Part shown: positions 3,210-63,387 of the stretch, piece after piece
Layout of the letters: the number at the start of each line of letters is the position of its first letter
How positions within the stretch are numbered: the first letter of the stretch is position 1
NCBI RefSeq assembly: GCF_964355755.1
Contig: NC_092671.1
Location: 39,759,304-39,823,303, forward strand
Source of the DNA: Antedon mediterranea
Taxonomy: Eukaryota > Echinodermata > Crinoidea > Comatulida > Antedonidae
DNA length: 64,000 bases
Direction: 5' to 3'
The notes under the pieces: generated by a model
What the model was told of the DNA's origin: nothing
Database searches by the model: none
The model's input: the letters and a program-made list of their open reading frames with translations, nothing else
Made by a program: the position numbers and the translations under genes

Positions 3210-6200
3210 TATGTGTTAATTTTTCTCGAGTGGAATCTGTTAAACCACGTTTTCACATGCAGTTTATCGGTTAATTTTCAATCGGTTAATTATCGGTTAA
3301 TTTCTAGACTGCGGAAACACGGCCTTATTTGGTATCGAATTCGAACCTCAATCTTGGTTGTTTGGAGGTATGACTCGAGGTTCTTGTGCGTAGAATTCTA
3401 TCTACACACATAATGTACTTATGCTTCAGGTGATAAGCGTATAATGCTTTTCGTAAAATGCAATGTGGAAAGAAATGGCTCATCGTAAAACTTTATCCTG
3501 TTTGATTATTCGGATCGTTTTGGCCAAAGGCTAAAATTCTTCTGATTGTTTTTTATTCCGAGAAAAAAAAAACAAGCAATATATATATAACACAATTTTT
3601 TTTATGAACCTTTTAATAACCCTACATTACGCATTGCGATAAATTACTATAAGACGATATTCACTAGTCTAGAGACTAGAGAGATAAAATCAATGCTAAA
3701 ATGCTGAAATGAAATGGTTAAAACTTAACAATATGTAAATCTTTGTCTACACTATCAAATTGTATTAGAACTACCATGTTTTAGCATATCACTACCTTTT
3801 TTGAGTTCATCGCACATTTTTGGTCAAACTAGTTTGGTATTGTAGACAGAGCTTAAGACTAGGGCATGACAAATGCCATAATAGAACTATATCCGAGGTG
3901 AATTTCTTTTTAAGTTCATATCAATTCCTAATTTCCATTATATTAAAATGTCCTGCCTCCTGTTTTTATGATTAAAATTAATTTTGATATAATCTTACAA
4001 AGGCGAAGTTCATAATTATAAGCCAAATTATGCATTAAGTACACCATGGGAATACCTAAGTGTGATGACCAAGGTGATGACCTTTATGAAATAACGAAGA
4101 TGATCAATGATAATTAGTGTGTTAATACATAACAAAATCAGGTAATGACAAGCATACAACGTTTAATGTATAACACTGTCAATTCAATTCCATTAATTAT
4201 AGTTTAAATTTAAAATAAGGTCAATTCGACGTTAAATCGTTTGTGTATTCCATATTCGTTTTCGATATTATAACAACCTGCACGCACTGACAATGTATAA
4301 TGTTTTATACATGTTATGATGATAGAGGCATACTTATGTATCAACAACACACTGATGTGTGTCTCCGTTAGGAAGCACCTAGTCTATACAATGACAATTA
4401 AAAATATTTTATCATTTATTCAACATCGTAAAAGCTTTGTCTGCACTATCAAACTAGTTTGACCAACAAAAATTGTGATGTGCACAAATATGGTAGTATG
4501 CCCAAATATGGTAGTGATATGACATCATTATGTCCATATATGGGCACATCACATTTTTTTTGTCACATAAAGTTTGATAGTGTACACAGAGCTGTATAAA
4601 AAATGCTAATAAGTTTAATACATTCTTATTCACCTGCGTTGTCGTTGTTTTTCTAGAAACGTTCATTGAATCCAGTATTTAACGAAACGTTCAAGTTTCC
4701 AGGAACATTTGAAGATCTGAGCAGTCAAACATTAAGACTGAAAGTGTACGACTTTGATAAGATGAAAAGGCATGACATCATAGGAGAAGTGGTGATACCA
4801 CTTGCAGACGTGGACATCTCAAGACAGGTCGAAATTTGGGCAGACTTGGAAATACCATCATTAGTAAGTACACAGACTTCTTCAACAATCTTTCTTTATG
4901 GAAGTTTTTTGTTTTACAAGACGTATCATTTAGGAAAAAGGGTTGTCTTCTAAACTGCTTGTGTTCTATTTACTTTTAGAAACAAGACGATCTTGGTGAC
5001 ATTTTGTTTTCACTGAGCTATCTTCCAACAGCTGAAAGATTAACAATTGTTGTAATAAAAGGTCGTGATCTTAAGCCAATGGATATTGATGGCAGTTCTG
5101 GTAAGTACGCACTTCGGCCTACTCATCATGATAAATAGTAACACATCTCAGAAGATGAGACCTAAGAAGGATATATACTGGAAACCAAAAAGATCAGTGA
5201 GGAAGACCCATAGACGATAACAGGATCTTTTTGTGAAGAAAAACAGGAATGAGCTTGTTTGAAGCAGACGATATTTTCAAGACCGTACCGCTTGGAGACG
5301 ATTTGTTAAAGCTATCCATAAAACCATAAAATGATGGTTTCCTCCGGTGTAATATATTATTCATGTGGCCCTTTAACAACATTAAAAACGTTGATTTTAC
5401 TTTTTACCTTTTAAAAAATGCTACTTTTTAATTTGGTAAACATTAATGAATGAATTACTTTATTTTAGATCCTTTTGTCAAAGTGTCTTTAATGAAAGGT
5501 GGCAAAAAGGTCAGAAAGAAGAAGACGACAGTGAAGCGGTCGACTTGTTCCCCGGTATGGAATGAGGCACTGGCCTTTAACATTCCTTCAGCTGAGTTGA
5601 AAACCAATTATAATTTAGAGGTATATTTACTGTTTTTTTTATTCAATATTTCACCCAGAGGCTCCTCACAAGTCACATCCTTAGTCTCTAGCAGCCTCTG
5701 CAACATATCACAATATGAGCTTAGCGCAACAGAAGTTGGAAACATATAACAACAAAAATCTAAATAGCAAATCTTTTGGCATCAACTAAATATTTCTAAA
5801 CACAATTAAATTAAATGATATTTTGCTTATTTAAAAGAGTATTTGATCCAAAGATAAAAATGCATAACAATCTAGAGTTGACTACAATCTCTTGTTTCTG
5901 AATTAACTATAATTATTATCATCTAAAGTTTACATTATTATGTGTATACTGTAACACACAAGTCGTGCCATGGAGAAAATTGATTATTGTGTGGTGGAGT
6001 CAAAGAAATTAATTTACGTCCTAATTTATTGTCATTAGAAATGCTCCCAGTACTATTCCATAAAGGATAAACCAGTGGCATTTACACTAACGAAACACAA
6101 GAATAATTACGTCTTATGGAAAATGAATTGACTAAATACTTTTTTTCAGATACAAGTGATAGATTATGATTTGGTAGGAAAGAATGACATAGTGGGTTAC

Positions 6201-6311: not shown

Positions 6312-6976
6312 ACAATATCAACAGTATTTAAAAAACAACAACTTTGATTATCAAATCAACACGTATCGACAAACCAAAAGAATGTTTTTATGAAAGATTT
6401 AAAAGCTATCTTGTTGACATGGTACTGTAGTATGAATAGTTTGAGTGGGGATAGTCTGTCAGTATGTTCCAGACCACAAAATATTGCATTTTAGTACTTT
6501 AACTGTATTCAACAATACTGTAGTTGCAATGCAATACTGTGGACGGATAGGGATTTATAGTATTTACGTTTTGCATGCTTTGCAGGTGGACAGTCGATAC
6601 AATAACCAAGACATGGCTTAGCTGCTGTAGGCTTCAATCAGTACTGTACTGTGAACGCTAATATACCACATTGTGTACATATTTCGATATTATACGATTG
6701 TAAAATACATGTACTTTAACATTAATTATATGTTCTGTACTTACTATTTCATTTAAGTCGTAGCTCGCAGTTCCTTATTGTGTCTCACATCTATCTTGAA
6801 AAGGTATTGAAGATTTAGACTCTCCGCATGGGTTTCGTGGGTTTATTACGTTTATAAACTGTCCTGTCTAGTCCAGTCGTCAATGGTTCAAAATACAACT
6901 TCTAGTTTCATTTTTCGTTTTTACCAACAAACAATACAAAATGACAACAATGAAAATATACTTTTAAAAGACAGTG
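6312..6976. other. 3' flank of the synaptotagmin gene, no gene seen
   Basis: AT-rich sequence presumably containing the 3' UTR. I see no convincing AATAAA signal, no open frame with protein character and no repeat of note. Confidence 0.5.
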
Positions 6977-7049
6977 CGCCCAATGTGGGGCTCGAACCCA
7001 CGACCCTGAGATTAAGAGTCTCATGCTCTACCGACTGAGCTAACCGGGC
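6977..7049 (-). tRNA. tRNA-Lys(CTT), copy 1
   Basis: The 73-nt cloverleaf starts GCCCGGTTAGCTCAGTCGG on the minus strand. It has anticodon CTT at 7016-7014, a GTTCGAGCC T-loop (B box) and a TAGCTCAGTCGG A box. The acceptor stem pairs fully, counting G-U pairs. An A-rich stretch on the plus strand just below 6970 gives a T-run terminator. Unit period is 145 bp. Apparent protein frames across this locus are only reverse reads of tRNA. Confidence 0.95.
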
Positions 7050-7121
7050 TTTGTTGAAGAGTGACGAAATTGGGCGATCTTGTGTCTTATTATAAAGAAA
7101 TACAAAATTAAAGAGTGATAG

Positions 7122-7194
7122 CGCCTTATGTGGGGCTCGAATCCACGAGCCTGAGATTAAGAGTCTCATGCTCTACCGACTGAGCTAATCGGGC
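7122..7194 (-). pseudogene. tRNA-Lys(CTT), copy 2, probable pseudogene
   Basis: The anticodon arm and CTT anticodon are kept, but substitutions break two acceptor-stem pairs (positions 4-69 and 5-68) and one T-stem pair. There is also a G-to-C change in the variable region. The other units lack these changes, so this copy is probably non-functional or weakly expressed. Confidence 0.75.
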
Positions 7195-7266
7195 TTTGTT
7201 GAAGAGTGACGAAATTGGGCGATCTTGTGTCTTATTATAAAGAAATACAAAATTAAAAAGTGATAG

Positions 7267-7339
7267 CGCCCAATGTGGGGCTCGAACCCACGACCCTGAG
7301 ATTAAGAGTCTCATGCTCTACCGACTGAGCTAACCGGGC
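7267..7339 (-). tRNA. tRNA-Lys(CTT), copy 3
   Basis: Identical over its 73 nt to copy 1. The spacer to the next unit is about 72 bp and nearly the same as the other spacers, so the whole 145-bp unit was duplicated. Confidence 0.95.
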
Positions 7340-7411
7340 TTTGTTGAAGAGTGACGAAATTGGGCGATCTTGTGTCTTATTATAAAGAAATACAAAATTA
7401 AAAAGTGATAG

Positions 7412-7484
7412 CGCCCAATGTGGGGCTCGAACCCACGACCCTGAGATTAAGAGTCTCATGCTCTACCGACTGAGCTAACCGGGC
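7412..7484 (-). tRNA. tRNA-Lys(CTT), copy 4
   Basis: Identical mature sequence to copy 1. The spacer on its 5' side (7485-7560) differs from the others, giving a 149-bp step to copy 5. Confidence 0.95.
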
Positions 7485-7560
7485 ATTGTTAAAGGGTGAC
7501 GAAATTAGGCGAAATTCCGTCTAATTATTATAAAGAAAAACATATTTTAAATAGAATATT

Positions 7561-7633
7561 CGCCCAATGTGGGGCTCGAACCCACGACCCTGAGATTAAG
7601 AGTCTCATGCTCTACCGACTGAGCTAACCGGGC
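7561..7633 (-). tRNA. tRNA-Lys(CTT), copy 5
   Basis: Identical mature sequence to copy 1, with its own T-run downstream on the minus strand. Confidence 0.95.
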
Positions 7634-7705
7634 TTTGTTGATGAGTGACGAAATTGGGCGATCTTGTGTCTTATTATAAATAAATACAAAATTAAATATT
7701 GATAG

Positions 7706-7767
7706 CGCCCAATGTGGGGCTCGAACCCACGACCCTGAGATTAAGAGTCTCATGCTCTACCGACTGA
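7706..7767 (-). pseudogene. tRNA-Lys(CTT), copy 6, truncated at its 5' end
   Basis: The match stops after 62 nt, inside the D arm. The first 11 nt of the tRNA (5' acceptor strand and start of the D stem) are replaced by unrelated sequence. This marks the edge of the array and cannot fold into a tRNA. Confidence 0.9.
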
Positions 7768-8831
7768 CGTAGGTCAACACATAATTCTCTATATAAGGTG
7801 ACTTGTTTGTTCACAGCCGACATTAAGTTGGTCTACATATTTAACTGAGTCCTTATTTTATTGTAAAGTTATAAATGGATTAATATATTAGACTAAGAAA
7901 ACTACTGTATATTGTCGATAATTATTATCGTGTCATCCAGAATTTAAACATAGATTTTCTATGAAGTTTTCATTTATATGTTTTATGTCAACCTATGGAA
8001 AGTGTCATGAAGAGTGTTTTTGTGTCTAATAAATAAATAATTACAAAAGATAGACGCAAACTTTTGTAGATAATTTTTTTTGTGACGAGTTGAATAATTG
8101 TCAGTATCTGTTGTTGGCGACAAACATGTGTTGTCGATATTAAGTCTTGCTTTGATATCGTAGACAATAGAAAACTTTATTGGTCATTTACGTCAAAATT
8201 GTCTTCCTCGGTAAGATAAGAAATAACACACATATATTTAAAATAACACATTACTTAGATGTATCTACTGTGGGCGGTTACTGCCGCCCCATACATTATA
8301 TATTATATTTTAAAATAATGATGTTTATATATAACATTTTACTACCAATTAGTAAATTATGATATATTTGTATATTAAACGTGTTTTTTTTTAAATAAAA
8401 GTTGTTGGTGTTGCATTTTTTTTGTAGCGCTGTGTCAAAGTTGCAAAATAATGGTTCTCATTGGACCGTAAAACATCAACTAGTGACGAAGTTTACATCA
8501 AATAAAGCAAATCATGAATGTTTATAATATCCAGTGTAAAAATACTATGAAACGCGTTTGGTGCAATAATAAGAGCTGCTGATACAATTTGTAATGATGA
8601 TCATGTGGTGATGTACCTATCATTGAAAAAAATATCAACAAACTTTAAAATATTTAGTGGCAAAAAAGATTTGTTTTAAAATTTATTCTAGCTACATTAA
8701 AAAAATTCTAATAATTTAAAACCACCATTTACATTTCTGCATAACCATTCTTATAATTCAGGAAGTCTATCCCTTGGTATTATTTGTATAATAGCCCTGA
8801 TAAAACAAAAAACCTAAATATGTAATTAACT
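7768..8831. other. AT-rich spacer, no gene seen
   Basis: Between the tRNA array and the sulfotransferase 3' end I see only short chance frames and low-complexity A/T runs. Confidence 0.5.
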
Positions 8832-21300: not shown

Positions 21301-23673
21301 TCACATTCATTGAAGAATCTAAACAAAACATTATTTTGTTTAGATCTTATTTTAAAGATAACAAAACTACTTCCATGTAAAGCTCTGTCTACTTTATGTC
21401 ACAAAATAAAGTGATGCCCATACCCTACCATATATGGACATGATGATGTCATATCATTACTATATTTAGGCATATCACTACCATATTTAGGCATATCACC
21501 ATCATATTTGGGCACATCAGACTTTTTTGCCAAACTAGTGTGATAGTGTAGACAGAGCTTTAGAGTAGTATTCTAATTACAGAATAACAATATGCATGAA
21601 TAAACACTTTATATAGTTTATATATAAATAATAATTATTACCAATAAGACCCTGTAATGCCTCTGGAATCACTGCCACGGGAAATTTAACATATATAGAG
21701 GGCGACACATGACTGGCATTGTATTCCAATTCCGCTTCTGCTAGTGCAGTTCTGGACGACGGAGACCAATTAACAGGCTTTAAATCTCGATATATAAGTC
21801 CCTGTGTGTAAGAGGAAGAATAGTTGCTGTATCATAAGATAAATGATACTTTAGTATATCAGATATGGGTGGGTGATAAAGAAAGTTTTTTTTTTAAATG
21901 AGGAAGAACTAACAGAAAAATACAACCTTAAAGGGTAAATGTGCATTTATATTAACAAAACTTCCAGAATATAGCTGCTATAAAGAACACAAGAAAAGTT
22001 ATTTCTGAAGTATAATAGTGGAAAAATTTTTATTAAAATCTCACCTTTTCGTACATTTTATAAAATGTTTCAAGTTGACTTGCTTCATAGTGTTTATCAT
22101 ATGTAAAATAACAACCACCATCACTCCTAAACAAAATGAAAAAAAAAACAATAATTGTCTGTACTTAAACAATATATTTAAAATCTACAATTGTCCAGTT
22201 TTGTAAAACTGAAGATTATTAATTGTTAAATGATAATTCAGTAAAATGATTAATTTTCCACTGTAAGATCAAGTTGGTCATGGCACATCAAATAAATTGA
22301 AAAAACTAGAGAAATATAAATATTGTATACTCCTAATGATATCTAAACACAACATACCAATCTGCCATAACTCCCCAGCGTTTGAAGGCATTCCTCTGTT
22401 TATTAATCGACTTTTCAGCAAATTTCCGAGCTATGTGAAAAAATGAAATCAAATGTTATATAACTGTTATGAATTTGGGCTTAGAAAACATTGTTTGAAA
22501 GAGATATACAGGGTATATACAAGTACTGTATTATATACGTATACAAGACTAGAACAGAAACAAACACATTCACAGCTTAATTCTTAAGTCACCTTTTGCA
22601 CGTATTGCTTTTGGAGAAAGTGTCTTGAAGTCCGAATCTTTTTTTAATGCTTTTAGTTCTATTGGCAGACCATGGCAGTCCCATCCTGGTTTATAGTGGA
22701 TTTTGTAGCCTTGCAGTAACTTGTACCTGTTGATTATGTCTTTTAAAACCTGAAAATAAAAATTTATGTAACTATCAACACAAATGAATAGTGATATGAT
22801 GTTAACCTGGTACCAAAAACGGACCCACGACCAAACCCAGGTCAGGTCAATGAATGTGCTGTCATCTGGACCTAGAAACCATCAAACCTGTGTCAAGGTG
22901 AGGAGCGAGGACACACGTCCCCATTATCTTGCACAACAAATTAACATGACGTAAATCGAAAGGTCTTTATGATTGGCTTTGTGATTGGTATTTGACACTT
23001 GCTTTTCCGCTAACCTTATTTAAAGCATGTCCAACATGTGGATCTCCATTGGCATAGGGTGGACCATCATGCAGACAGAACTCTTTATTCAGTGTATCTT
23101 GACTACGTTGCCATGAATATAAATCTGAAAATTTGCATGCCTGGAAACAAAATTATGACATTAATTTTAAGTCCTGCAATTCTTTAGTAATATTGTAATA
23201 TAATTAAAAGAATAAAAAAAAACAACAACTGAATCGGAGTGCAACACCAAAATGTCACAATACAATAACATACTGTATTGTTCCTTACTGTAATTTTTGT
23301 TTACGACAGGTACTAAACTAGACTCGAGTCTAGCTAACTAAGATTAGAAGTCATTCATATACTATAATGATTATCATAGGCCTACCCAAAAAGGATGTCT
23401 AGCTAGGGCCTAGGCCTACATCCTGTTTAATTCATAACTGGTCACTTTGTACGTTTGACACAGACTTAATACTAACCTAGGCTAGGAATGATGACCACTT
23501 ACTTTTTGAACGTCGGTCTCCCGCTTCCCAGCACCCCACAATTCAAAAGAGGTTTTCGGCAAGTTCAGTGATTTGCTAAACCTTTTTTTGCTTGCTTTGT
23601 CAAAAAATCGCTTCAGGGTGAAAGTAAATGTTTTTGTAGAATTATATTGCACAAATAGTTTAAACCTAAACAT
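15381..23673 (-). CDS. IARS2: Isoleucyl-tRNA synthetase, mitochondrial, 20 exons
   Basis: Twenty exons join in one frame to 946 codons. From the 5' end: 23673-23503, 23140-23015, 22749-22593, 22430-22358, 22126-22045, 21801-21642, 21318-21112, 20776-20607, 20446-20356, 20235-20084, 19609-19449, 19282-19180, 18856-18660, 18335-18233, 17573-17448, 17359-17228, 16778-16672, 16546-16407, 16301-16111, 15572-15381. The first 40 residues are basic and hydroxylated with no acids until later, as in a mitochondrial presequence. Class I motifs: HVGH at 92-95 and KMSKS at 632-636. Other landmarks are [41 protein letters not shown] (editing domain), [27 protein letters not shown] and [12 protein letters not shown] in the anticodon-binding domain. 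It charges mitochondrial tRNA-Ile. The last 64 codons contain no CxxC pair, so a C-terminal zinc motif is not seen. Introns carry MITE copies and a SINE. Confidence 0.96.
15645..15714. mobile_element. MITE family A, copy 5, truncated
   Basis: Only the inner ACTAGTTTGACA, one ATATGGTAGTG unit and the right terminus TAGTGTAGATAGAGCTTTA remain. In the last IARS2 intron. Confidence 0.7.
15768..16060 (-). mobile_element. tRNA-derived SINE
   Basis: Reading the minus strand from 16060, the head has an A box (AGTGGCCGAGCGGTTA) and a B box (GGGTTCGAGGCTC), resembling a tRNA-Ser/Leu head. A body of about 200 bp follows, ending near 15768. No cloverleaf acceptor pairing is complete, so it is a retroposon and not a tRNA gene. 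It sits in the last IARS2 intron, in the same orientation as the gene. Confidence 0.75.
17701..18182. mobile_element. MITE family A, copy 6, split by a SINE
   Basis: The left half (17701 to about 17815) and right half (about 18122-18182) are a normal family A element, TAAAGCTCTG to GACAGAGCTTTA. The halves are separated by the retroposon at 17816-18120. It lies in the IARS2 intron between the exons ending 18233 and starting 17573. Confidence 0.85.
17816..18120 (-). mobile_element. tRNA-derived SINE inserted in a MITE
   Basis: On the minus strand the head reads GAGCTGTGGCTTGGTGGTTA (A box) and then GGGTTCAAGTCC (B box). About 200 bp later the element ends in an A-rich tail of AAAATAAAA type. 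The SINE must be younger than the MITE it interrupts. Confidence 0.75.
18494..18654. mobile_element. MITE family A, copy 7, against the IARS2 exon 13 donor
   Basis: The right terminus GACAGAGCTTTA ends at 18654, five bases before the exon edge at 18660. On the minus strand the donor reads GTAAG followed at once by the TA target site and AAGCTCTG of the element. Confidence 0.9.
21378..21562. mobile_element. MITE family A, copy 8
   Basis: Full termini, two ACCATATTTAGG units, a CATCATATTTGGG unit and a CCATATATGG box, in an IARS2 intron. A 14-C run flanked by two copies of CCACATAATTAACAACAAAC lies nearby at 21036-21098. Confidence 0.85.
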
Positions 23674-26121: not shown

Positions 26122-26657
26122 CGAATTTTTGAGCTCAAAGTATGTGTCGATAATCTGACTGCATTTAGCAATAGAATCAGATTAGTAGCAGAACACGTTT
26201 GAGAGTATTGTACTCACGTCCAAATATCTTAAATAAAGAAACCAATAAAACGTTCTTTTTTTCTATAATGTTGATTGGTTAGCTTCGATTAGAGCTAATT
26301 GCGACAGATTATGAAACCATAAAAATATAAAATTGCTTTTAAAACATGAAAGTGGAAATCTTGAAGTTTGACAGTATTTAATGTCGAGTTTTACGTGATA
26401 AATAATGAAAGACAATTGAATTATCGCGCCTCAAACAAACAATTGAATTAAAGTAATTTTTATCAATACATCATGACTGATAATACCCAGCAGCCTATAT
26501 TTTATACATGGATAAAAAAACAAATAAAATTCAGGTCAGCAAACTGACAACTGCATAATAGTTTCAACAACCCCACTTTCAATACATATATAAACTAGAA
26601 GGAATAACATCATTACGGTGGTTATGATTAAAAGATAGCCAGTGTTTGTCCTATTAA

Positions 26658-26675
26658 AGATGATATGAAACGATT
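26658..26675 (+). repeat. Left terminal inverted repeat of the Kolobok-type element
   Basis: AGATGATATGAAACGATT directly follows the TTAA at 26654-26657. Confidence 0.9.
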
Positions 26676-27067
26676 TTGAAAATTTAAATAAATTAGTGTT
26701 TATGAATCTGTCTAATGTAAATAACTAACACACCAGAAATTAGGTTTAAATACCTCATAAAACTCGAAAAATAAACAAATTAAGTTTTAAAGAAAATCCT
26801 CCGGAAAATGGCCGACCAACTTGCACGCCATATTGGTTTTCACGATCGCTCTAAACACACGTACGTCCGATCGCTTAGCTGATTTGAAATACCCGCGGTA
26901 GTAGCCACGGCAGCCGTTGTTATGTGATTGGTTACTCTTTTTCAACCCAGCGAATCGTGATTGGTTGATTTCATGCACTTTGACAGAGACACAGAGAGCT
27001 TGACGTTTCATGCATGACGACGAAAACAACATGTGCGACACAATCTCACCATCATTATTTTCGCAAG

Positions 27068-30000
27068 ATGCCGAGTGCTTGTTGTATCGGTGGATGTAAC
27101 CGGACTGGATCAACACACCCAAATGTTTCTTTTTTTTTATTCCCCGACAAGTTAAAACGCAGTGAAACGTTTAATAAATGGACTGAATTTGTTAAGTTAA
27201 CTAGAAAGGGGTATGTGTGGAAGCGGACTAACAGAATATGTAGCGCCCATTTTTTAAACGCGGACATCGACAATTGTTTCCATATTTCTGAAATGAAGAA
27301 GACGGGGGTGGTGGTAAAGCCGAGACTAAAAACGGATGCTTACCCCACCATAAAAGCTCCGGTAAGTGAGGAAGAAGGCCTACCACCCCAACCCAAAAAA
27401 CGGAAAGTGCGGCCTCGGACTGCGGCGTGTCGAAGACGCGAGGTTGAAAGGGTAAGAAATATTTTTATAAATTAAAATCCCCTGCGTGGACGGTTGCCTA
27501 CGTACGTAACGTTGTCGTTCAAATCTAGGCCTAGCCTGATTATACTATCATAATCGTTCGATTTAGTTTATGAAAATAATAATAAAATATTTAAATTAAA
27601 ATATTTCCTTTTAAATCTGTGGGCCCAGAGCCCCAGACTATCTAGTTAACTATTATAGGTCCTCGTTGGTGAACCATTATACATAGGCCTATTATTACTA
27701 TTAGGCCTAGTGTAACCAGGGAGTTGTCCTGGTGTAACACTCTGACCATCAGGTCAACAACCCTTCAATCACTATTTCTCCCTACTCCATCTATTAACAT
27801 TCCTAGTGGTTTCTTCCTATCTCTAAGTACTCTTTTTTCACTGGCCTAAAACCCACATCCTTAATCAATTAGTGTTTCCTCATCATCATCAAGGAATGTT
27901 CCCACAGGCTTGGTATGTTAGTTTTAACAAAAACATTTAAAAGTTTATTTATAAAATTGTATGACAATTTTTTTTAATTCACACCAGTTGATAATTTTAG
28001 TAATTGTTATTGCTAAGAATACCCAGGTAAGCCATGGAGGTACCTCCATGGAAGCTTGGCCTAGTCTAGACCTGGATACTGTGTAGTTCTGTTTTGTTAT
28101 CATCAAGGAGCTTTGTTACCAAACAAAGAATGGAAAGTTTCCAACGTATGTATTCTTACTTTTCATTTTATATTTGATTTCAGATTCTGATTGAAGAAGA
28201 ATTGCCTGGTACATCATCGGTATGTATTTTTTTTTTTATACCTGTCCCAGTTTTAAAATGTGATAACGCATTGAATGCCTTAGTCAAAATTGGTGTAGTC
28301 TACCCTTTATTATTAATTATATGGATGATGAAATATTTTAAATAGTTTAACTGTTAATCTTTTAATCTCTGTGTGTTAAAGCCATTAATTGAAATCATTA
28401 GTTGTCTACTTTGTGTATAAAGTAATTAAATTCAGATGTTGGTGAGTAAAAATAATCTGGTCACTAGATATGTTGTACTTTTAATCCAGGCCCAAGGACA
28501 GTGTCCACAGTCAGCAGGTATAGTATTTAGATGTTGAAAAATAAACAAAGTCATTGTTTTGTTGGTTATGTAATAATACAGAAATATTTAGTCATGTTAA
28601 AATGATTAGTTCTTGTTCATGCATGTTTTTGTGGAGTTAATTATTTTTTTTGAAGCCATGTTCTGATCTGTTTTGCATGATTTTACTGTTAATTTCCATC
28701 TTTTTTTTCATGAATAGCATGCAGTTCAGTAGACGTTTATCATTTCCATATTTCTATTGCAAACTATTTTGCATGATGATTACATCATAACAATTATACA
28801 CAGTACAAACACCATACCATTAACTTATATTTTTATCAAATAATTTGTTTTTTTTTTAGAGCATGTACTTAAGCAAGTTTATTAGGGAACATAAACCCCA
28901 CCGTTACCCCTTTTTTAAAAATTATCTTTTTCATATTTCATGGTACCAAAAACAGACGACGCAGCGGTAACACACAAAATAAATATAAATTTATAATTAT
29001 ATAACTTATTTATTCAGTTTCCTCAAGTTCCGAAGAAACTGGGGGAAGCAGTAATGAAGACGGAGATAAACGTGGCATACATTTATACCAAGAAGCGGAC
29101 AGTGACAGTGACCATGATGATGCGGATCCAAATTACATCCCTCATGAAGGATCATCTGATGAAGAATCACTGTAAGTTGAGCAAACTTCTTGAGTGATGT
29201 TTATAAACCTAATAACCACCTTTTATAGTGGTAGCTTTTTGGATATATATAAATAAATATATACTGTACATTTATATTATTAAACAAACATTTCTTTTTT
29301 GTAGCACTGATAACATAGAATCTGGAGAGACTGTTCGTGGACAGAGGAAATATATTGTAGGTCAGGATGAGCTTCTGACATTGTTCGACAGATGTCGTGA
29401 ATGTGGAAGTCAAGCCGACAAAAAAATTATAAGAGAATGTGGAACGGCAGTGGAGGTGATGGCCACTTGCACAAACAGAGCATGTAGACATGTTTTTGAA
29501 TGGTCAAACCAACCAAAAAGTGCAAATATGTTCCTATTCAACATTTTGTTGTCCGCTGCAATCTTGGTATCGGGTAAGACTTTCAAAAATATTTTTTTGT
29601 AATTCAATCTATTTTGATAATTTTTTTTTATAATCAAAACATACTTCAATCGTATTGACAAAGAATTCTTTTATTTAAAATTTTAGGATGTTGTATTACC
29701 AAATTTTTTAGGGCACTCCGATTTATTAACATCGCTGTTTTTAGTGATCGGACATTTTTTTATCATCAAAAATGGTAAGTTCAACATTTCAATAATGTCT
29801 ATGTAGCAATCTAATTTTGGAAAAAAATGGGTGTCTATTGATGTTAACAAATTATATGTTGCTATCTGAATTTTTATCTTCAAACAAAGTATTTTACTGT
29901 ACAAAAATATTACTGAGTAGTGGTGTATTCTTTTTAAATGTGACATAGTTAACTGAATATTATCTTCAATATATTATTTAGGTATTTGCTGCCAGCCACT

Positions 30001-31930
30001 TCGTGTATATTTGCGGCTCAAAGAGAGAAACACTTTAAAAGTGAAATGAATGTATCTTGCGATATGCGTTGTGACAGCCCCGGTTTCACAGCTAAGTTCG
30101 GTACCTACACAACTATCGATACAGACACTCAGAAAGTTATTCACGTAGAAGTTGTGCAGGTATTTTTTTTTCATTTGTTGTTTATTTATAGCACCTCAAG
30201 GCTATAGGTCCAATTTATAAATTAATAAATTGTAAACAGTTATACAGGTAAAAATAATAATTCAGATATAAAATTCAAAATAAAAATCCTAAATATATCG
30301 CAACATTATATTAACCCTTATCTTTATTAGAATCTATGTTATTTTTGTTCATTATTCAAAATTTTTACCCATAAATTTTTCAGCAATTTCTTACAAATTC
30401 TAAAGTCATTTATATACAAATTTTACTAATACAGTACACCATAAACTAGACATGCTTTGAAAATAAATAATTTATAATTTTTTACTTAAATATTTTTATT
30501 ATAGAAAGACGAATGCCCCAATTCACCAGCTATGGAGTTAGAAGGGCTGAAACGAACGCTGTCTGTTCTGCAAGGCTATGGTGTTACAATCAAGCGTCTT
30601 GTCTCGGATCGCCATAGTAGTATTGCAGCATTTTTAAAATCCACAACCATCATTCATTACTTTGATGCATGGCACATTGCCAAGGGTAAGTAATATGTCT
30701 TAATAGTTATTTTACTCAAATTACCACAAATAAAAGGAATCAATGTATGTCAAATGATGTAAAAAGGTACGACTTTTTTCGTCTTACTGTAATTTTGTTT
30801 TTTTTATATATATTCAGGAATAAAGAAAAAATGCATAAAAGCCAGCAATAACAAAGAATGTGACAAAATTGGCAAATGGATACCATCCATTATCAGGATG
30901 GTATATTGGATCGGAAATACCACACAAGAAACGGAGGACTTGGATGCCGATGGTGAACTGAGGAAGCAAAAATTCCAAAGCATATATAATCACATACGGG
31001 GTATTCATAATCACGAAACCACACTATATCCCAAATGCCTTCATGGAGAGCTGGAACCTCGAGACTACATTCAACCAAGTAAGTTGTAGTATTGATTTTG
31101 GTGAAGATTATCGACAGTTTTTTTTTATTTTGCTAAAATTTATATATTTTTTTTCCAGATTCAAAAGCCGAAGAAGTAGTTTCAAACATCCTGAATTCAC
31201 CTTATTTGTTGAGATCTATTAAGCAGTTGTCACCGACTATCCAGACTTATTCAAATGAATCGTTTCATCAAATTATTAATCATTTTGCGCCAAAAATGCA
31301 CCATTTCCGGTTTAAGGGCATGCTTGCAAGGTATAATTTGATAGAATAGCATATTGTATAATTTAATGATAGAGAACCAATTAAGTAAGGTCTTTATAAT
31401 CTATGATTTACACTAATTAAGCCTGAAGCCTTTAACAATCAATGTAATGTGTTGTAATTCTATATTGTGCATTTACTTCAGAACCTACCTTGCAGCCTTG
31501 CATTGCAATGAGAATGTTGGCAGGCCACAAAGGGTCAACAAAAAAGGGGACACAGAGCACTCTTTGTGGTATTCCCGGGCAAAAAAGGACTGGATGGCCA
31601 AAAAACATCTTGTTGATCCCACATTTGGTAAGGACCAGTTACTATTAATTGTTACTAAGTTATGCCATAATTTAAAGTGTTTGTAAGCAAAATGTGGAAC
31701 TAATTTATAAAATAGTTAAATATCCTATTACATTAAACAGTAATATTTTTGTCTTTGCAGTTTATGCCATCAACACCATTGAAATGGCGATGTATATGGC
31801 CAAAACTAATACAAAAGGATCATATTACACGGCAGAAATGATGTGTGATCCTGGTACAATTACAGAAAAACTGCCAAAACCAGACAAGACAGACTTTGTT
31901 GCAAAGTTAATCTCTAGATTTAAGCATTAA
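27068..31930 (+). CDS. THAP-domain DDE transposase (Kolobok-like), 12 exons
   Basis: Exons: 27068-27451, 28184-28219, 28490-28517, 29018-29171, 29305-29573, 29687-29774, 29982-30159, 30505-30685, 30818-31078, 31159-31330, 31482-31627, 31761-31930. All phases agree, giving 688 residues with no stop. Residues 1-95 are a C2CH THAP zinc finger: C5/C6, C10, W38, C58-x2-H61 and AYPTIK near 91-96. PKKRKV at 109-114 is a nuclear localisation signal. An acidic linker follows, then a Cys cluster (CRECG, CTNRACRHVFEW) near 210-260. The likely catalytic residues are D351 (CDSPG), D414 (SDRHSSI) and E560 (SNESFHQII), with the D433-x2-H436 motif (DAWH). It should bind the terminal repeats and cut at TTAA. 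An alternative ATG at 27014 would add 18 residues. The small exons 2 and 3 are supported by splice sites and frame only. Confidence 0.88.
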
Positions 31931-32214
31931 CTTTACACTGCTTCACAGAACTTGAGTCATAAATTTAGAATATTTTTATTTTATCACTACCTTGATCACT
32001 GATTTTATATCTCGGAGAAAAAGAAATGTTTAGTTGTTAATTTATTCCTTTGTTTTAGTTCATTGTATTTTGACATGCATGCTTCTGTTGTTCACAAAAA
32101 AAAAAACAGGTATTTATTCATAAGGTAACTACTGTACATTTATTTTTATACGGCAGGAACTACTGTACATAGATTTGTATTTATATGGAGTGTTAATTCA
32201 TAAAATAAACTAAA

Positions 32215-33460
32215 CTAGTCTTCATCCAATCGAGGATATGTAAATCCTGTATAATTTTGTTCAGGGTCAGGAAAAGCTTCTCTGATTTTATTTATTACAC
32301 AGGATGTAATTGGGACACGCCTGTCTCGCCCAAGATACCTCCAACACCAACGCACAAACTGTCGATACGCTGTATACCTGTATTTCCTGTGCAAACAAAA
32401 ATAACTTGTAGAAAATGATTTTTTGAATAAAAATAAAGGCAAATCAGTTATAAATTACTATACTGCAAAAACATGGTGTTTACCTTTCTTTTCTTCCTTC
32501 CACAACAAGTTCATCATATTGAGATGCATACTGCCAATACGCAATTTGGAGGGTTGCCGGATTAAGAATGGCAGCTTGGAACCAGGGATGGGTGGTGATA
32601 CATCCATTATGTTCATTTTCCTTATTTTTATCCATTATTTTCTCTACCTGTTTATTTTTTAAAAAAGTGATATTTTCACTAATGGAATTTATTTACAGTA
32701 CTATCAATCATAAAAAATGTATGGTTATGACAGTTTTAATGTGGAGCAATTTTATTTTAATACATAATTTAACACTGCTTACTTCTTGACAACAATATCT
32801 ATTTTCCCACATCTCCTCTACAACACAGTTTCCACACCCACACCTGTAGTAGAAAAAGAAGGAATATGATTATGTTGTTAGAATGTCTCACTTCTTAAAA
32901 TATGAAGGTCTAGGCCTAGCTAGGCTAGTAGACTAGTTAGTAGTACGCCTACTCTACTACTTACTAGCCCTAAAATAAAGCATTTATATATTACTATACT
33001 AGCTAGGCCTACTAGCCTAGGGACTCCCTAGCCTAGTAGTACTCTAGAGTCTAGGCCTAGTACTAGGAGGCCTAGGATATTATTATTAATACTAGCTAGG
33101 CCTACTACTAGCTAGCTAGGCTAGGCCTATATATAGTTTTAGGCCTTATTAATTATACAGTACTTTTATCCCCAAACCTAGACTACCACTTTACTCCCTC
33201 CTTACAAATAAATATACCTACCAATCTCGTCCTTGTCTCAAATGAAGATTTTGTGGTAGGCCCATCGCTGCGAATCCATGTGCTCTAGCCCGATCTCGGT
33301 GGTGTGCAGCATCGCCGTCGAGTAGGCCCACTTCTCCCTCCGCTCCACCAGCGGGCACCCTTGGATCGTTTTCAAACACTCCTCTCCAATTCACTTCAAC
33401 AATATCATGCTCATCTTCGGATGATGCCGAGGACGATAAGGACGACATATCGCTATCCAT
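32215..33460 (-). CDS. P2X7-type ballast-domain protein carried by the transposon, 4 exons
   Basis: Exons on the minus strand, 33460-33222, 32843-32783, 32647-32484 and 32386-32215, join in frame to 211 residues. The first 35 residues are Ser/Asp/Glu-rich. The conserved part starts DWCGCGNC (80-86), then RYCCQE (95-100), C116 and TTHPWF, NPATLQIAYWQY, and RKYRYTAYRQFVRWCWRYLG, CVINKIREAFPDPEQNYTGF. This pattern matches the zinc- and nucleotide-binding ballast domain of the vertebrate P2X7 cytoplasmic tail; no P2X channel segment or transmembrane helix is present. It converges on the transposase gene, with 284 bp between the stop codons. Its function in the element is unknown; DNA or nucleotide binding is a guess. 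Similarity is by recognition of motif order and not by a search. Confidence 0.85.
32906..33150. repeat. Dense TAGGCCTA / CTAGG palindromic words
   Basis: About 245 bp in the first intron of the ballast-domain gene consist largely of permutations of CTAG, TAGGCCTA and ACTAGT. Scattered TAGGCCTA words occur across the window, but this is the densest cluster. Confidence 0.7.
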
Positions 33461-33981
33461 TTAAAATTATTGTAAATATTAGATAGTATATAGTAGAAAT
33501 AAAACGTAAAGCTATCTAGCGATTGAAAAATTAAATGGCGTCCATACACAACAAACGAACGAGTCGAGAAAGTGTATCTGACGCATGCGTATTATCGGTT
33601 CGTGTACCTAGCTTGTGTAGGGTTTGACTGAATGTTTCGGAGAAAATGAGCGTGAAAAACGAAATTAAAAATCAATTTATATAAAAAAATGAAGGAAATA
33701 TTCCATAATTTCAACGATTTACGATGTATTAATCATTTAAGAATGAAACTGTAAAGCGGATAAGTTAATATCGAAATAGTTTTGGCGCAGTGGACGATTA
33801 ACCCAAAAATTCCTATCTCCTCCTGTACAAAAGTTTCCGCTTGTGACGTCACAGGCGGATTTTTTTTCATTTCTTAGGGCTGTTTTCTATGCGTCATCGT
33901 CATCTCTGAAATGTACTCTAACAGTCAGCTGTATGTAACAGTATATACTACGTGTTGAAAACATAAAATCAAACTTTTTGG

Positions 33982-33999
33982 AATCGTTTCATATCATCT
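33982..33999 (-). repeat. Right terminal inverted repeat of the Kolobok-type element
   Basis: Exact reverse complement of the left terminal 18 bp, followed directly by TTAA at 34000-34003. Confidence 0.9.
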
Positions 34000-34003
34000 T
34001 TAA

Positions 34004-47745: not shown

Positions 47746-48343
47746 TATATATATATATATAATTTGTTTACGGTATCTTAATTAATGTAACTAGTTTGTA
47801 GTGGGCTTCCTATCACAAGTCTCTTGGGGTTTCCTGGAGGTCCCTTTCATCTTTTTACAATTTTTACTTCTTTTTTTGTTACCATATGTGTTTTTATTTG
47901 TTTATGAGATGAATAAAGAGAAGTTATTTTAATAAATCTATATTATAATTGATTGTAAATACAATACAATGTTTAGTTATCGTAATAATATATTCCTGGT
48001 GCTGGTAATATAGTCCACAACTCGCCGTCGCGTTGAAATCTTGTTAACGTCTGTGGTGCTTAAATAATTAACGGTAGCCTACTGTATGCAAAATAACATG
48101 CAGAGTTTGAGAACAAAACAATCGTAATCCCAGTCTTTAATCCCATTAAAGATAACCCCATCTAGGATCTTATATAAATTGAGTTCATTTAATGAAGGTT
48201 TGATTAAAAGATTAACGGGATGAAATTTAATAAGCACATGCGCTAAGATTTAAGATGCTAGATGTATTGCTGTCTGATGGTAAACAACAACTTCATGCTA
48301 ATTGAGTCTAAAACATAGCAATTACATACTGAAACTCACAACC

Positions 48344-49230
48344 CAGGGACCGTAGACAACATGAGGCAGACGAGGCGCTCACAACCCAGGACCGTAGACA
48401 ACATGAGGCAGACGAGGCGCTCACAAACCAGGACCGTAGACAACATGAGGCAGACGAGGCGCTCACAACCCAGGACCGTAGACAACATGAGGCAGACGAG
48501 GCGCTCACAACCCAGGACCGTAGACAACATGAGGCAGACGAGGCGCTCACAACCCAGGACCGTAGACAACATGAGGCAGACGAGGCGCTCACAACCCAGG
48601 ACCGTAGACAACATGAGGCAGACGAGGCGCTCACAACCCAGGACCGTAGACAACATGAGGCAGACGAGGCGCTCACAACCCAGGACCGTAGACAACATGA
48701 GGCAGACGAGGCGCTCACAACCCAGGACAGTAGACAACATGAGGCAGACGTGGCGCTCACAACCCAGGACCGTAGACAACATGAGGCAGACGAGGCGCTC
48801 ACAACCCAGGACCGTAGACAACATGAGGCAGACGAGGCGCTCACAACCCAGGACCGTAGACAACATGAGGCAGACGTGGCGCTCACAACCCAGGACCATA
48901 GACAACATGAGGCAGACGAGGCGCTCACAACCCGGGACCGTAGACAACATGAGGCAGACGAGGCGCTCACTACCCAGGACCGTAGACAACATGAGGCAGA
49001 CGAGGCGCTCACAACCCAGGACCATAGACAACATGAGGCAGACGAGGCGCTCACAGCCCAGGACCATAGACAACATGAGGCAGACGAGGCGCTCACAACC
49101 CAGGACCGTAGACAACATGAGGCAGACGAGGCGCTCACTACCCAGGACCGTAGACAACATGAGGCAGACGAGGCGCTCACAACCCAGGACCGTAAACAAC
49201 ATGAGGCAGACGAGGCGCTCACTACCCACC
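48344..49230. repeat. 42-bp minisatellite, about 21 copies
   Basis: The unit contains GACAACATGAGGCAGACGAG and GCGCTCACAACCCAGGACCG. As 42 is a multiple of three and the unit has no stop in several frames, long frames of about 300 codons stay open on both strands. The copy-to-copy changes alter amino acids in every frame, so the frames are not under protein constraint. I read it as a non-coding minisatellite. Confidence 0.9.
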
Positions 49231-56063: not shown

Positions 56064-56229
56064 TAAGCTCTGTCTAAACTATCAAACTTTATGGGACAAC
56101 AAAATGTGATGTGCCCATATATGGACATGATGATGTCATATCACTACCATATTTGGGCACATCACTACCATATTTGGACACATTAAACTTGTTTTGTCTA
56201 ACTTGTTTGATAGTGTAGACAGAGCCTTA
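56064..56229. mobile_element. MITE family A, copy 17
   Basis: Both termini are present. The interior has one CCATATATGG box and two ACCATATTTGG units, in the opposite orientation to copy 18. Confidence 0.9.
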
Positions 56230-58296: not shown

Positions 58297-61200
58297 ATGA
58301 AACACAAGGGACGTGACATGGCAAACTCCAGGAAGACGTATTCACGAGAAATGCTGTTTATGATCGTAGGACAAGACGGTGTCGGCAAATCAGGTAAGAT
58401 AATAATTTGTTATTAAATTACTTTTGCTTTAAACCTGGCCAGTGGGTTCTTTTTACCTCAAAAGGGCACTTTTTTTTCCACAAAAATTGGCGACAATTAT
58501 AAACGCTATATTGATGCATATTTATCATCACTGTTGGCTTCTTTGGAAAATGGGATTTCAGAAAGGGGTTCCTTCAAACCCTTCCCCCGGGCAACTGAAT
58601 TGTTTAAACTGTGTTATTTGATCGGATGTTCGTAACATTACGGTTGATCATTGTGCTAATGTGCTACGCATCGATCATCTCTGACATACACCAAGTAATT
58701 AAAGTCTTGCTCGTCGTGAGCATCGTTTACAATCAACTTAATTGTTAACGATGTTCGTTGGTGATGTGATGACAAGGGTTTCGGTGATTAAATACCAAAT
58801 GACGACGATGATGATGACGATGATGAGAATGAAAATGGTCCCAAAATGTCGTTGATGAGAATGACAATGTTAATGATGAAGAAGTTGATGAATCGATGGT
58901 AATGGTGAATACTGCACTTGTGCTTATTTTGTATCCAGTTTGGTTCCCACTAGCGTCGCAGCGCAAGCACGTTACGCAACGTAAGTGATTTGACCAATCA
59001 CAAGCGATGGACAATGGCTTGTTATTGGTCAACTCGATTGCCTTGCGCGTACGTCCTTGCGTTGCGTCTCTGGTGGGAATGTATGTTTTATTTTGATCTT
59101 GGAATAACAATATTGACGAATGAATGATGAATGAACAAACGCATGAACGAATGAATGAACGAACGCATGAACGAATGGATGAATGAAGGAACGAACAAAC
59201 GATTGAATAAACAAAAGAAAAAACGACTGAATGAACGAACGAACGAACGAATCAATGCTGATGGTGGATGAGATAATAATGTATTCCTGTTATTAAACTA
59301 CAGAACACAACATAACGTGTATGCCTTGGGGGGTTGGGGATGCCCCTAAATCTAGAAATGCAATTACTACAGTACGAGTCCCAAGTGGTCGGTGATAAGA
59401 ATTGCTTGTTTTCAGGAAATAACATGTTGTATACATTGTACACTCGAGAGTGAAGTGCCTTACTTGATTTATAACTTTAATTTTTAAGACCTTTCTCCTG
59501 AGAGCGTTTGAAGCATACTTGTCAATCATTAATAGATAACGTAGTAATAATTGAGTTACGGTATTAAAAGCGGATAAGGGTGAAATTGTAAGGGGTCATT
59601 AGGTAATATAGTAATAATGAGTTACGGTATTAAGAGCAGATAAGGGTGAATACTAAGGGGTCATTAGGTAGAATCATTATTGGAAAAAAACTAATCTCAA
59701 TTGGATGACTTTTATTAACTTGACTATAACATTCACATTTTAGACAAATTGGCTATAAGACTATTTTTTAGAAGGCCTAATGTATAGCATACACATTTAA
59801 ATAAAGAGAATACATTTAGTATTACATCTAACGAAATACTACAGTATTAAATCTAACGAAATACTACAGTATTACATCTAACGAAATACTACAGTATTAC
59901 ATCTAACGAAATACTACAGTATTACATCTAACGAAATACTACAGTATTACATCTAACGAAATACTACAGTATTACATCTAACGAAATACTACAGTATTAC
60001 ATCTAACGAAATACTACAGTATTTTTCTCATTGTTTCATAATACCATTTTCGAAAATTAACATACTTAATGATGATGCTTTAATTTTCCTATAAATAACA
60101 AAGCTCAACCACTAAACTATAAAGCTCTGTCTACACTATCAAACAAATGTGTGATGTGCCCAAATATGGTAGTGATATGCCCAAATATGGTAGTGATATG
60201 CCCAAATATGGTAGTGATATGCCCAAATATGGTAGTGATATGCCCAACTATGGTAGTGATGACATCATCATGTTCATAAGGACACATCACATTTTTTGTC
60301 ACATAAAGTATGGTAGTGTAGACAGAGCTTAACGCGCTATTATTAAGTCTTATGCTTCAATGCTGTGCGGTATTCATTTGTGAAAAGAAACAGTACTTAT
60401 ACTGAGGTTCTGTTTATGTGAACGTTTCATTGATTTAATATTTGAACTTCATAAGGAGATTGCACAGGTTTCTACAAGAGCAATAATATGATTAAGAAAC
60501 GTCTGATGATCAAGTATCCAATAATATTCGACGAGAGCACAAATATAGCACTTAGACGTCTTCAAATTGCATCTGATACAAAAGTTCAATAATCATTTTA
60601 ATTATAGACTAGTTTAAACGAAGTGTCCAGCAGAACTTTAAAAATGAAAAATGCTGCTCACTCGATGTCATGTGTTAGGAACTACGTACGCAGTGTTGCC
60701 AATGTACAAATTCATTCACCCCGATCGTTAATATTGACATTTTTACAAATGCACAATATCTAATATGTGGATTGAACCGCAACAAGGGGGACATAACCTC
60801 GACAATCATTACACAAACACAGTACAATCGTTACACAAGAAACAACGGCAAGATATTATTAGGCCTATTTTATATAAAAGTGGAATAGAAATATATCGAG
60901 GTGCAATTAAATGTAAATATTTTCGGTCACATGTCAAGAAATGTATCAATTCAAGTGCCAATCTAGCACGTACTTACATTTCTACCACTGTTAAGTAATT
61001 TGACAACGACAGGTGAAGGCACATTTTTTTCATTAAATTATTAAGACCAAACAGAGACACAGCAAAAGAACAGTATCAACTCACAGCTGCATCTTTACCA
61101 TTCAAAACCGTTTAAAATAACATTATCTATTTTAGTGCCAAAGCGTAATAAACTCGCAATTAAAACTAATTCTCGACAAACTGTTAAGTGAATTGGAATC

Positions 61201-63387
61201 AATCAAAACCCCACACACTCACATCTATGACGTGACAGTTTGTTATTTAATAATATAATGAAACTACTGTTTCCTTGCAGTGAACAGTGTTACAATTTGT
61301 ATAAAATCTGAATGCCACCACCCCCTTGTAAATTTCCTTGAAACCTTCACACATATCAAAATCAACCACGAAACAATTGCACATCAATTATTACTTGCAA
61401 ATAAATATACTGTACTACAACATTTAGTCTGGCGGAGTTTTGACTTAATAATACTGTAGTAAAAAGATATAGTAGTAGTTTAGCGTATGTGGCGTTTCAT
61501 ACGTATAATACATGAGCTTGTAAACTCTTTTCAGACAAAAATTGAAACGTCGGCGTGTGAACAAATATTAATAATAATTATTAATAGATAGATAGATTTA
61601 TATAGCGCAAATACACGATGCGCTCGACAAAAAAAGAAAGCATGGAAAACAAAAGAAAGAGAACAAAAAGACAAAATCACCATGCTAGCACCCAAAGCGG
61701 AGTATGGGGATTCACCATCACTCTAACATCGAAAAAGAAAATAAATACAGACTTGGGCCAGCTATACAAAATTCTTCTCTCACATTTTATTGACTGATGA
61801 CGTGATTTCTAAACACGTGATCAGTATTGTAATTTGCAGACCACTGTAAATCATACTGTCGACATTTTTATGTATACTTTGGGTATATGGGGCGCCACTT
61901 AACATGCCTTGCATAAATAATGTCCTAAACTGCGTCCCATAGGACAAATATATGTATGAAGAATAAATTCAATTTAGCTCACATGCAGGTATAAATATTA
62001 TTAACCGTATAATAATGTAGAGAAACATTCCGGAACTTTACTAATATAAGATTACTGACTAGTCTTCGTGACGACAAATTGCAAAAATGTGTTGATATTA
62101 AAGCACATGGGTATAGGGTAATTTGATTATAAACATTCAATATTTCGTAGAGTATTTGTCGCCAGTCAACAATATGCACGTGGTCTTCCTCTAACGCGAA
62201 CGCAGCGAACGCAGCGAACGCGAACACAGCAAACGCGAACGCAACGAACGCGAACGCAATGAACGCACCTAATTTACCAATCAAGCAACAGTTCGTGATT
62301 GGTCCAGCAATATTGGGCTCAAGATTAATAAAATCTTTTTCTCTTTTCAGCGATTGTTGTGAGATATTTGACTCATAGATTTATTGGTGATTATGATCCA
62401 CAACTAGGTAAGCATCATGGATATGGATGGATGGATCAATTGAAATATGATATTATAAATTGATTATGTTGGAAATCAACCGTGCTGAACGATTGTAAAT
62501 CATTTATCCACAAAACGTCAGGAGTAATACCTTTGCCACTAAATAATTATTTAGTAATGAGAGTTCATGTTCCACTATGCGCCTGGTGATGTTTAAGTAT
62601 AAATTACATTCTAATCCCGTGACGTCATAGTAATCGAGTTGAAATGATCGTAATTGTCTAATGAAGCTATAGAGGCTAATAATGATATTTGATGCAAGTA
62701 TAAAATGCACCGTTGGGTAGGTACGTCTCCCGATAGGTCTGAACCTCTAGATAGACAGTTGAAGATGATTGATTGATCAAGGGTTAGGATATAAATTATA
62801 GGAGTTAGAACCTATCCTTTGGAACACCTCTATTTAGGGGACACTTTATTAGTATTCTAAAGCTCTGTCTACACTATCAAACAAGTTTGACGAAAGAAAG
62901 TGTGCTTATATGGCAGTCATTTTCCCAAATATGGTCCTACATCATGTACATTGGGCAGTTTGATAGTGTAGACAGAGCATAATATTTGTTACACTTTTGT
63001 GTTGGTTGCGTATAACCTTAGCCTACGTGTATTCTTACTGGTGTCAATATATAATATCGAGCACAATTGCAAGTATTGTACGTTGAATCTTCTTTCAATT
63101 TGAGAGGCAGATTTCATGGATTACTGTAATAGGTAATTGACGCAAACCAGCGGAAGTCCACTATCTACCTATATTCCCGCCTGTCTTACGCACCGGATCA
63201 TCCTCACGGATATGTGTACACTATTTAATTGATTTAGAGCAGAAACAACGTTACTACGATATTAAATGCATTACTGTATAGTTCACGTACGTTCAATGGT
63301 ATCTTTACAGAATCTGTTTATAGCCATATGACCAAGATTGATGATCAGTCGATACTACTTAAACTATGGGATACTGCAGGTGAAAAC
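58297..63387 (+). CDS. RERG/RASL12-like small GTPase, paralogue 2, 3' part outside window
   Basis: Three exons, 58297-58393, 62351-62407 and 63311-63387, give the first 77 residues in frame. G1 is GQDGVGKS (25-32), switch I is FIGDYDPQLE and G3 is DTAGE. Exon 2 is 57 bp with phase 1 on both sides, as in paralogue 1. Exon 1 in both genes ends one base after the P-loop Ser/Thr codon, and exon 3 in both ends just after DTAG, so the two genes descend from one duplication. The invariant switch I Thr is replaced by Gln (Q50) and the catalytic Gln by Glu (E76). These changes predict altered GTP hydrolysis and effector binding. G4 and G5 lie beyond base 64000. Introns of 3.96 kb and 0.9 kb contain repeats only. 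Confidence 0.85.
58941..59080. mobile_element. MITE family C, second copy
   Basis: TGGTTCCCACTAGCGTCGCA at the left pairs with TGCGTCTCTGGTGGGAA at the right. The interior has GATTTGACCAATCAC, shared with the 862-1024 copy. Confidence 0.7.
59105..59260. repeat. GAAT/GAAC tetranucleotide repeat
   Basis: Long run of AACGAATGAATGAACG-type words. Confidence 0.9.
59818..60021. repeat. 25-bp tandem repeat, 8 copies
   Basis: Unit ATCTAACGAAATACTACAGT plus ATTAC. Copies from 59826 to 60020 are almost identical, so expansion is recent. Confidence 0.95.
60120..60331. mobile_element. MITE family A, copy 18, with five 21-bp units
   Basis: Best view of the family. Outer TA, termini close to AAGCTCTGTCTACACTATCA and its reverse complement, then tandem 21-bp units. 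Four units have a perfect CCAAATATGG and the fifth CCAACTATGG; the common left-arm motif ACTAGTTTGAC is missing here. GACATCATCATG follows, then CACATCACA and GTCACATAAAGT before the right terminus. TA sites and fold-back structure suggest a Tc1/mariner-type non-autonomous element; no matching transposase is in the window. Elements with 0-5 units are scattered on both orientations. Confidence 0.9.
61558..61735 (-). mobile_element. SINE-like repeat fragment
   Basis: ATTTATATAGCGC and a GCGCTCGAC word with A-rich filler and GGGGATTC resemble the repeat at 43877-44094. Confidence 0.4.
62190..62272. repeat. GCGAAC hexanucleotide-type microsatellite
   Basis: Repeated CGCGAACGCAGCGAACG words with A/G variants; about 80 bp upstream of an acceptor of GTPase paralogue 2. 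Confidence 0.85.
62868..62981. mobile_element. MITE family A, copy 19, internally shortened
   Basis: Intact left terminus TAAAGCTCTGTCTACACTAT and right terminus TTTGATAGTGTAGACAGAGC. One CCAAATATGG unit is left. Confidence 0.85.

Follow-up and report, generated by a model that had tools for sequence, protein, structure and literature searches.

A Kolobok transposon with transposase and KolX genes at a TTAA site in the crinoid Antedon mediterranea, probably full-length and of the Kol0 lineage

The stretch of Antedon mediterranea DNA analyzed here (64,000 bp of contig NC_092671.1, positions 39,759,304 to 39,823,303; hereafter the window) contains two convergent genes, their stop codons separated by 284 bp, that are enclosed by inverted ends adjoining TTAA and belong to a Kolobok-type element. 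Both gene models are spliced predictions made from sequence. The first, a transposase, occupies 12 exons on the + strand (27068-31930; 688 amino acids) and the second, KolX, four exons on the - strand (33460-32215; 211 amino acids). All introns are bounded by GT..AG (11 of 11 and three of three, respectively), and neither model is interrupted by stops or frameshifts. An earlier note on this DNA had counted exactly two intact genes between the ends, which was borne out for the spliced models, both of them open, and had left the second gene, now recognized as KolX, unidentified.

The ends of the element are formed by the 18-mer AGATGATATGAAACGATT, present at 26658-26675 (+) and 33982-33999 (-) as a perfect inverted repeat, each copy adjoining TTAA exactly as the earlier note had stated. 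With mismatches, the inverted repeat reaches 32 bp at 88%, TTAA counted in. Allowing up to three mismatches, the 18-mer has two matches in the window, compared with 0.14 on average in shuffled sequence (two matches were also reached in 1 of 100 shuffles), while the 22-bp combination with TTAA has two matches and was found in none of 100 shuffles. When the 681 TTAA sites of the window were scanned for inverted ends in pairs separated by 100 bp to 20 kb, the ends of the element were the one pair with an inverted match of at least 12 bp and no further pair of this kind was found; there were four pairs at 10 bp and nine at 8 bp. The element spans 26658-33999 (7,342 bp) and has a G+C content of 34.0%, compared to 34.5% for the window. 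The span of 26654..34003 given previously located the ends correctly, but the element proper stops at 33999 and positions 34000-34003 are TTAA. The flanks share TTAA only, and the termini read AG...CT. That the element is full-length, as previously proposed, is supported.

Searches against Pfam identified a THAP domain (PF05485, E 1.1e-11; 45.7 bits against a cut-off of 23.9) and a Mutator-like transposase domain (PF20700, E 1e-9, residues 236-504) in the transposase. The account of Xenopus Kolobok elements (PMC6004289, used here, like the other cited papers, for its excerpted text) names as criteria a THAP domain with C2CH, P/W/F and an AVPTIF box, a DDE triad and an H2CH finger. In the element, the AVPTIF box is present as a variant (AYPTI), the triad consists of D347, D414 and E560, and a DxxH motif (D433-A-W-H436) lies between the second D and the E. 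Between DxxH and the E is an H2CH zinc finger (H498, H503, C513 and H515), each residue of which occurs in 11 of 12 aligned rows, with E or a gap in the odd row. Only two cysteines and one further histidine could be located by eye between D347 and D414, so a second CCHC finger is absent; such a finger after the first D marks Kolobok P, E, D and Kolobok5 (PMC9587614). His-Me, DEDDh, PD-D/ExK and RecQ domains had no Pfam match in either the transposase or KolX. The deposited protein P0019 is identical to the transposase at all 389 aligned residues, most likely represents the same locus, and supports the last seven exons, the first of these partly, while exons 1 and 5 are supported by Pfam matches.

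The core of KolX corresponds to the "ballast" domain of the P2X7 receptor (Pfam P2RX7_C, E 3.2e-16) and carries seven cysteines (C81, C83, C86, C97, C98, C116 and C184). Within the motif RxxAYRQFVRW, residues R158, Y162, Q164 and W168 are present in all 14 aligned rows and R163, F165, V166 and R167 in 13, and R190 is found in 10 of the 13 rows that have a letter there, with Lys in the other three. KolX is probably a zinc-binding protein of the ballast fold.

Together, these features place the element in the Kolobok class with both ends present, an assignment that is well supported. The published rule for Kolobok termini is 5'-RR...YY-3' (PMC9587614), and the element combines such termini with a TTAA duplication, DDE and DxxH motifs, a THAP domain and an H2CH finger; the earlier assignment to Kolobok, made from the TTAA site and a THAP transposase, thus gains support from Pfam, from these motifs and from PMC9587614. 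The Kol0 lineage (Kolobok-1_XT type; Kojima & Bao 2022, PMC9587614) is described as having TTAA sites, RR/YY ends, a DDE transposase with DxxH and H2CH, and a separate KolX. All of these are found here, KolX with its ballast domain and seven cysteines and the transposase without a second CCHC finger, and the THAP domain is shared with the Xenopus transposases (PMC6004289). Unlike published Kol0, the host is a crinoid, the likeness being to the published description. KolobokP, KolobokD, KolobokE and KolobokH also have a Kolobok transposase, but KolobokP has long direct repeats, about 450 or 660 bp in length, at its termini. KolobokP was rejected for want of such long repeats in the element: the longest direct repeat between 26600 and 34060 was 35 nt at 71% among the 20 of 27 families listed. 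We consider it highly probable (roughly 95%) that the locus holds a full-length, potentially autonomous cut-and-paste Kolobok of the Kol0 lineage, inserted at TTAA between two host genes of A. mediterranea that converge. That the element may be active, as the earlier note had suggested, is plausible, closely similar KolX genes being present on other contigs of the species.

Copies of KolX that are 95-100% identical over the aligned parts occur on three other A. mediterranea contigs and indicate, at the protein level, that the family has spread. These contigs were distinguished by their totals in bp only, and damage was judged from the deposited gene models alone. P0001 (26,055,566-bp contig) is identical to KolX at 148 of 151 residues and its deposited model does not go beyond exon 3; P0002 (31,698,884-bp contig) is identical at 134 of 134 and then enters another frame near its end; and P0003 (36,192,472-bp contig) is identical at 140 of 147 in four blocks, without internal stretches that include five of the cysteines. 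P0004 (41,379,608-bp contig; 130 of 201 identical) belongs to another subfamily. The pattern fits a recent spread in which some copies would be decaying.

These copies bear directly on the possibility that the locus consists of two domesticated host genes that have kept their transposon ends by chance. Domestication is reported for Kolobok transposases on many occasions in Xenopus (PMC6004289) and for KolX in P2X7, perhaps also in nanor (PMC9587614), and two intact gene models are what such a pair would show; a domesticated locus, however, need not retain perfect ends and TTAA, and close copies on three other contigs, two of which look damaged (P0002 and P0003) and one of which ends with exon 3 (P0001), are the expected picture of a recent transposon family, though annotation errors could explain part of it. 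We regard domestication as very unlikely. Slightly less likely still is an element of piggyBac, which shares TTAA with Kolobok (PMC9587614), or of the P superfamily, which shares THAP (PMC7776569), given that Pfam up to E 1 returned THAP and Mutator-like matches only and no piggyBac transposase, that AG..CT termini have the Kolobok form (PMC9587614), that P elements make 8-bp duplications (PMC7776569) where the flanks here share TTAA only, and that piggyBac-borne KolX versions lack most of the seven cysteines (PMC9587614), all of which are present here.

Several observations weigh against the assignment of the element to an intact Kol0 transposon with a ballast-fold KolX. The splicing is predicted, and transposase exons 2-4 are supported by splice signals and frame only. 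The P0019 model spans only the last 57% of the transposase, and its first 16 residues are exon 5 in another frame, a difference between gene models. The element is placed in Kol0 by its shared features. The structure model of P0004, the KolX relative, has a mean predicted local distance difference test (pLDDT) score of 64.9 and models the cysteine-rich part poorly, and Foldseek template-modelling (TM) scores are low (0.17-0.35 by query length for the top 14 rows of each of two models). A P-element match from Foldseek is not among the 50 VIA-align rows listed, which re-rank Foldseek's own matches, such that unlisted families may still match.

The origin of the P2X7 ballast domain from KolX is an already published view, as is the kinship of KolX with nanor (PMC9587614). 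Ballast proteins have been found across animals, including sea urchin (Rump et al. 2020, PMC7016195), in a paper the main text of which does not contain the word stem 'transpos'. KolX residues 75-207 align with the C-terminal ballast domain of rat P2X7 (residues 471-595; PDB 6u9v and 8tr5), with R158, Y162 and R190 opposite the identical P2X7 residues R546, Y550 and R578. KolX has no channel part, unlike P2X7, and its QFVRW corresponds to SYA..TW in the pairwise alignment. That rat P2X7 retains the core RxxAYRQFVRW only in part suggests a transposon-specific contact that the receptor may no longer need. The adjacent cysteine pair of P2X7, which we take to be C498/C499, is out of register in the pairwise alignment, falling opposite M105/D106, and was matched to the KolX pair (C97-C98) by family alignment and spacing. 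Similar proteins have been deposited under other names. P0006 (Haliotis), P0009 (Lineus) and P0010 (Notothenia) are deposited as 'P2X purinoceptor 7-like', and P0011 and P0012 (both Lytechinus) as uncharacterized; all five have the ballast domain and, at 196-255 amino acids, are too small to be P2X channels. By these features all of them are probably KolX, and the receptor name therefore misleads for the first three.

Transposition can be pictured from the family to which the element belongs: the THAP domain would recognize DNA near the element ends, and the RNase H-fold DDE domain would excise the element and insert it at a new TTAA. KolX would be a zinc-dependent partner in trans, contributing to end pairing or to contact with the target or host. 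We lean towards such an accessory role, with some reserve; the excerpted text of PMC9587614 states no job for KolX. The P2X7 ballast domain binds guanosine triphosphate and diphosphate (GTP/GDP; PMC7016195), and the P-element transposase depends on GTP for the pairing and placement of its ends (PMC7776569). KolX might bind guanine nucleotide and supply in trans the role of the P-element GTP-binding insertion domain, ordering the ends for synapsis and strand transfer, a proposal we consider very improbable. Two of the five named P2X7 contacts are kept in KolX (R546 and R578), and three of the GDP-contact residues differ (H547 to Y159, R574 to I186 and K583 to D195). If the proposal were true, the nucleotide site of P2X7 would be the relic of a transposition cofactor. 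A crinoid Kol0 with both gene models open and perfect ends could serve in a transposition assay. Since the P2X7 ballast domain is considered to derive from KolX (PMC9587614), assaying KolX here would also bear on the role of this domain before it joined an immune receptor.

The class of element is already known, and what may be new is the case of a Kol0 in a crinoid. In full-text searches of the open-licence literature, no paper was found on Kolobok in crinoids, PMC9587614 was the only paper found for KolX and for the P2X7 ballast domain combined with 'transpos-', and PMC6004289 the only one for Kolobok combined with THAP and TTAA. Titles on the Antedon genome assembly or its transposable elements in the same literature revealed nothing on the element. 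KolobokP, another lineage, has been placed in three other echinoderm classes (PMC9587614), and a Kol0 in echinoderms is not unexpected because ballast proteins were already known from sea urchin (PMC7016195). Patterns for KolX and for the transposase hit 21 and 53 stretches of viral contigs, respectively, and tblastn confirmed none of these.

Table 1. Parts of the Kolobok element, in window positions
Feature	Positions	Strand	Basis
Left TTAA target-site duplication	26654..26657	.	sequence
Left terminal inverted repeat, 18 perfect bp, then imperfect as far as 26685	26658..26675	+	
Transposase exon 1, ATG, THAP domain	27068..27451	+	splice model + Pfam
Transposase exon 2, short	28184..28219	+	splice signals + frame only
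Transposase exon 3, short	28490..28517	+	splice signals + frame only
Transposase exon 4, acidic linker	29018..29171	+	splice signals + frame only
Transposase exon 5	29305..29573	+	Pfam match from residue 236
Transposase exon 6	29687..29774	+	splice model; protein match from 29713 on
Transposase exon 7, first catalytic Asp D347	29982..30159	+	splice model + protein match
Transposase exon 8, second Asp D414, DAWH motif 433-436	30505..30685	+	splice model + protein match
Transposase exon 9, H2CH (H498, H503, C513, H515)	30818..31078	+	splice model + protein match
Transposase exon 10, catalytic Glu E560	31159..31330	+	splice model + protein match
Transposase exon 11	31482..31627	+	splice model + protein match
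Transposase exon 12, stop TAA 31928-31930	31761..31930	+	splice model + protein match
KolX exon 4, stop TAG	32215..32386	-	splice model + Pfam
KolX exon 3	32484..32647	-	splice model + Pfam
KolX exon 2, five of seven cysteines	32783..32843	-	splice model + Pfam
KolX exon 1, ATG at 33460, acidic Ser-rich N-terminus	33222..33460	-	splice model
Right terminal inverted repeat, 18 bp perfect	33982..33999	-	
Right TTAA target-site duplication	34000..34003	.	sequence

Beside the element is a RERG-like Ras gene on the - strand (45913 to about 34958), the stop codon of which is separated from the element by about 955 bp and the product of which is 100% identical over the 168-amino-acid query to A. mediterranea P0032. 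P0032 lies on a contig of 40,927,303 bp, a length shared with the contig of P0019, and we accordingly take P0019 to represent this element. On the other flank a gene ends near 25.6 kb; read by eye, we assume it to be TSPO-like. With these genes on either side, the element therefore lies between coding regions. A tblastn search of the window with the 34 collected proteins found nothing outside the element at E 1e-3, aside from the three Ras-gene proteins, and so revealed no additional fragment of an element of this type.

Of the three other 10-bp TTAA pairs in the window, two were rejected as ends as the match does not extend. The match of the third (56063/60332) can be extended, but both ends are those of an abundant family of short repeats (17 end copies), and we interpret the pair as two separate short copies with their outer ends facing away, not as a single element. 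The ends of this family, GCTCTGTCTA, have 17 exact copies in the window compared to 0.07 expected (at 3852, 10453, 18178, 18497, 21382-21558, 25717, 38040, 40454, 41670, 55864, 56067-56225, 60124-60328 and 62862-62978) and differ from the ends of the Kolobok element. Adjoining the end on the outside is TAAA in nine of 17 cases and TTAA in four. Three of four copies inspected contain a 21-bp unit, CATATCACTACCATATTTGGG, in variable number, which has 24 matches in the window with up to two mismatches. The family has the appearance of a non-autonomous element that contains a minisatellite, and our guess is that it is of the TA-target kind.

Two tandem arrays are also present in the window. A tRNA-Lys(CTT) array with a period of 145 bp (6976-7768) comprises five genes by ARAGORN and a weaker sixth by Rfam. 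An array of about 21 copies of a 42-bp unit (48335-49228) is open in several frames on both strands, and the long open reading frames there are therefore probably artefacts of the repeat.
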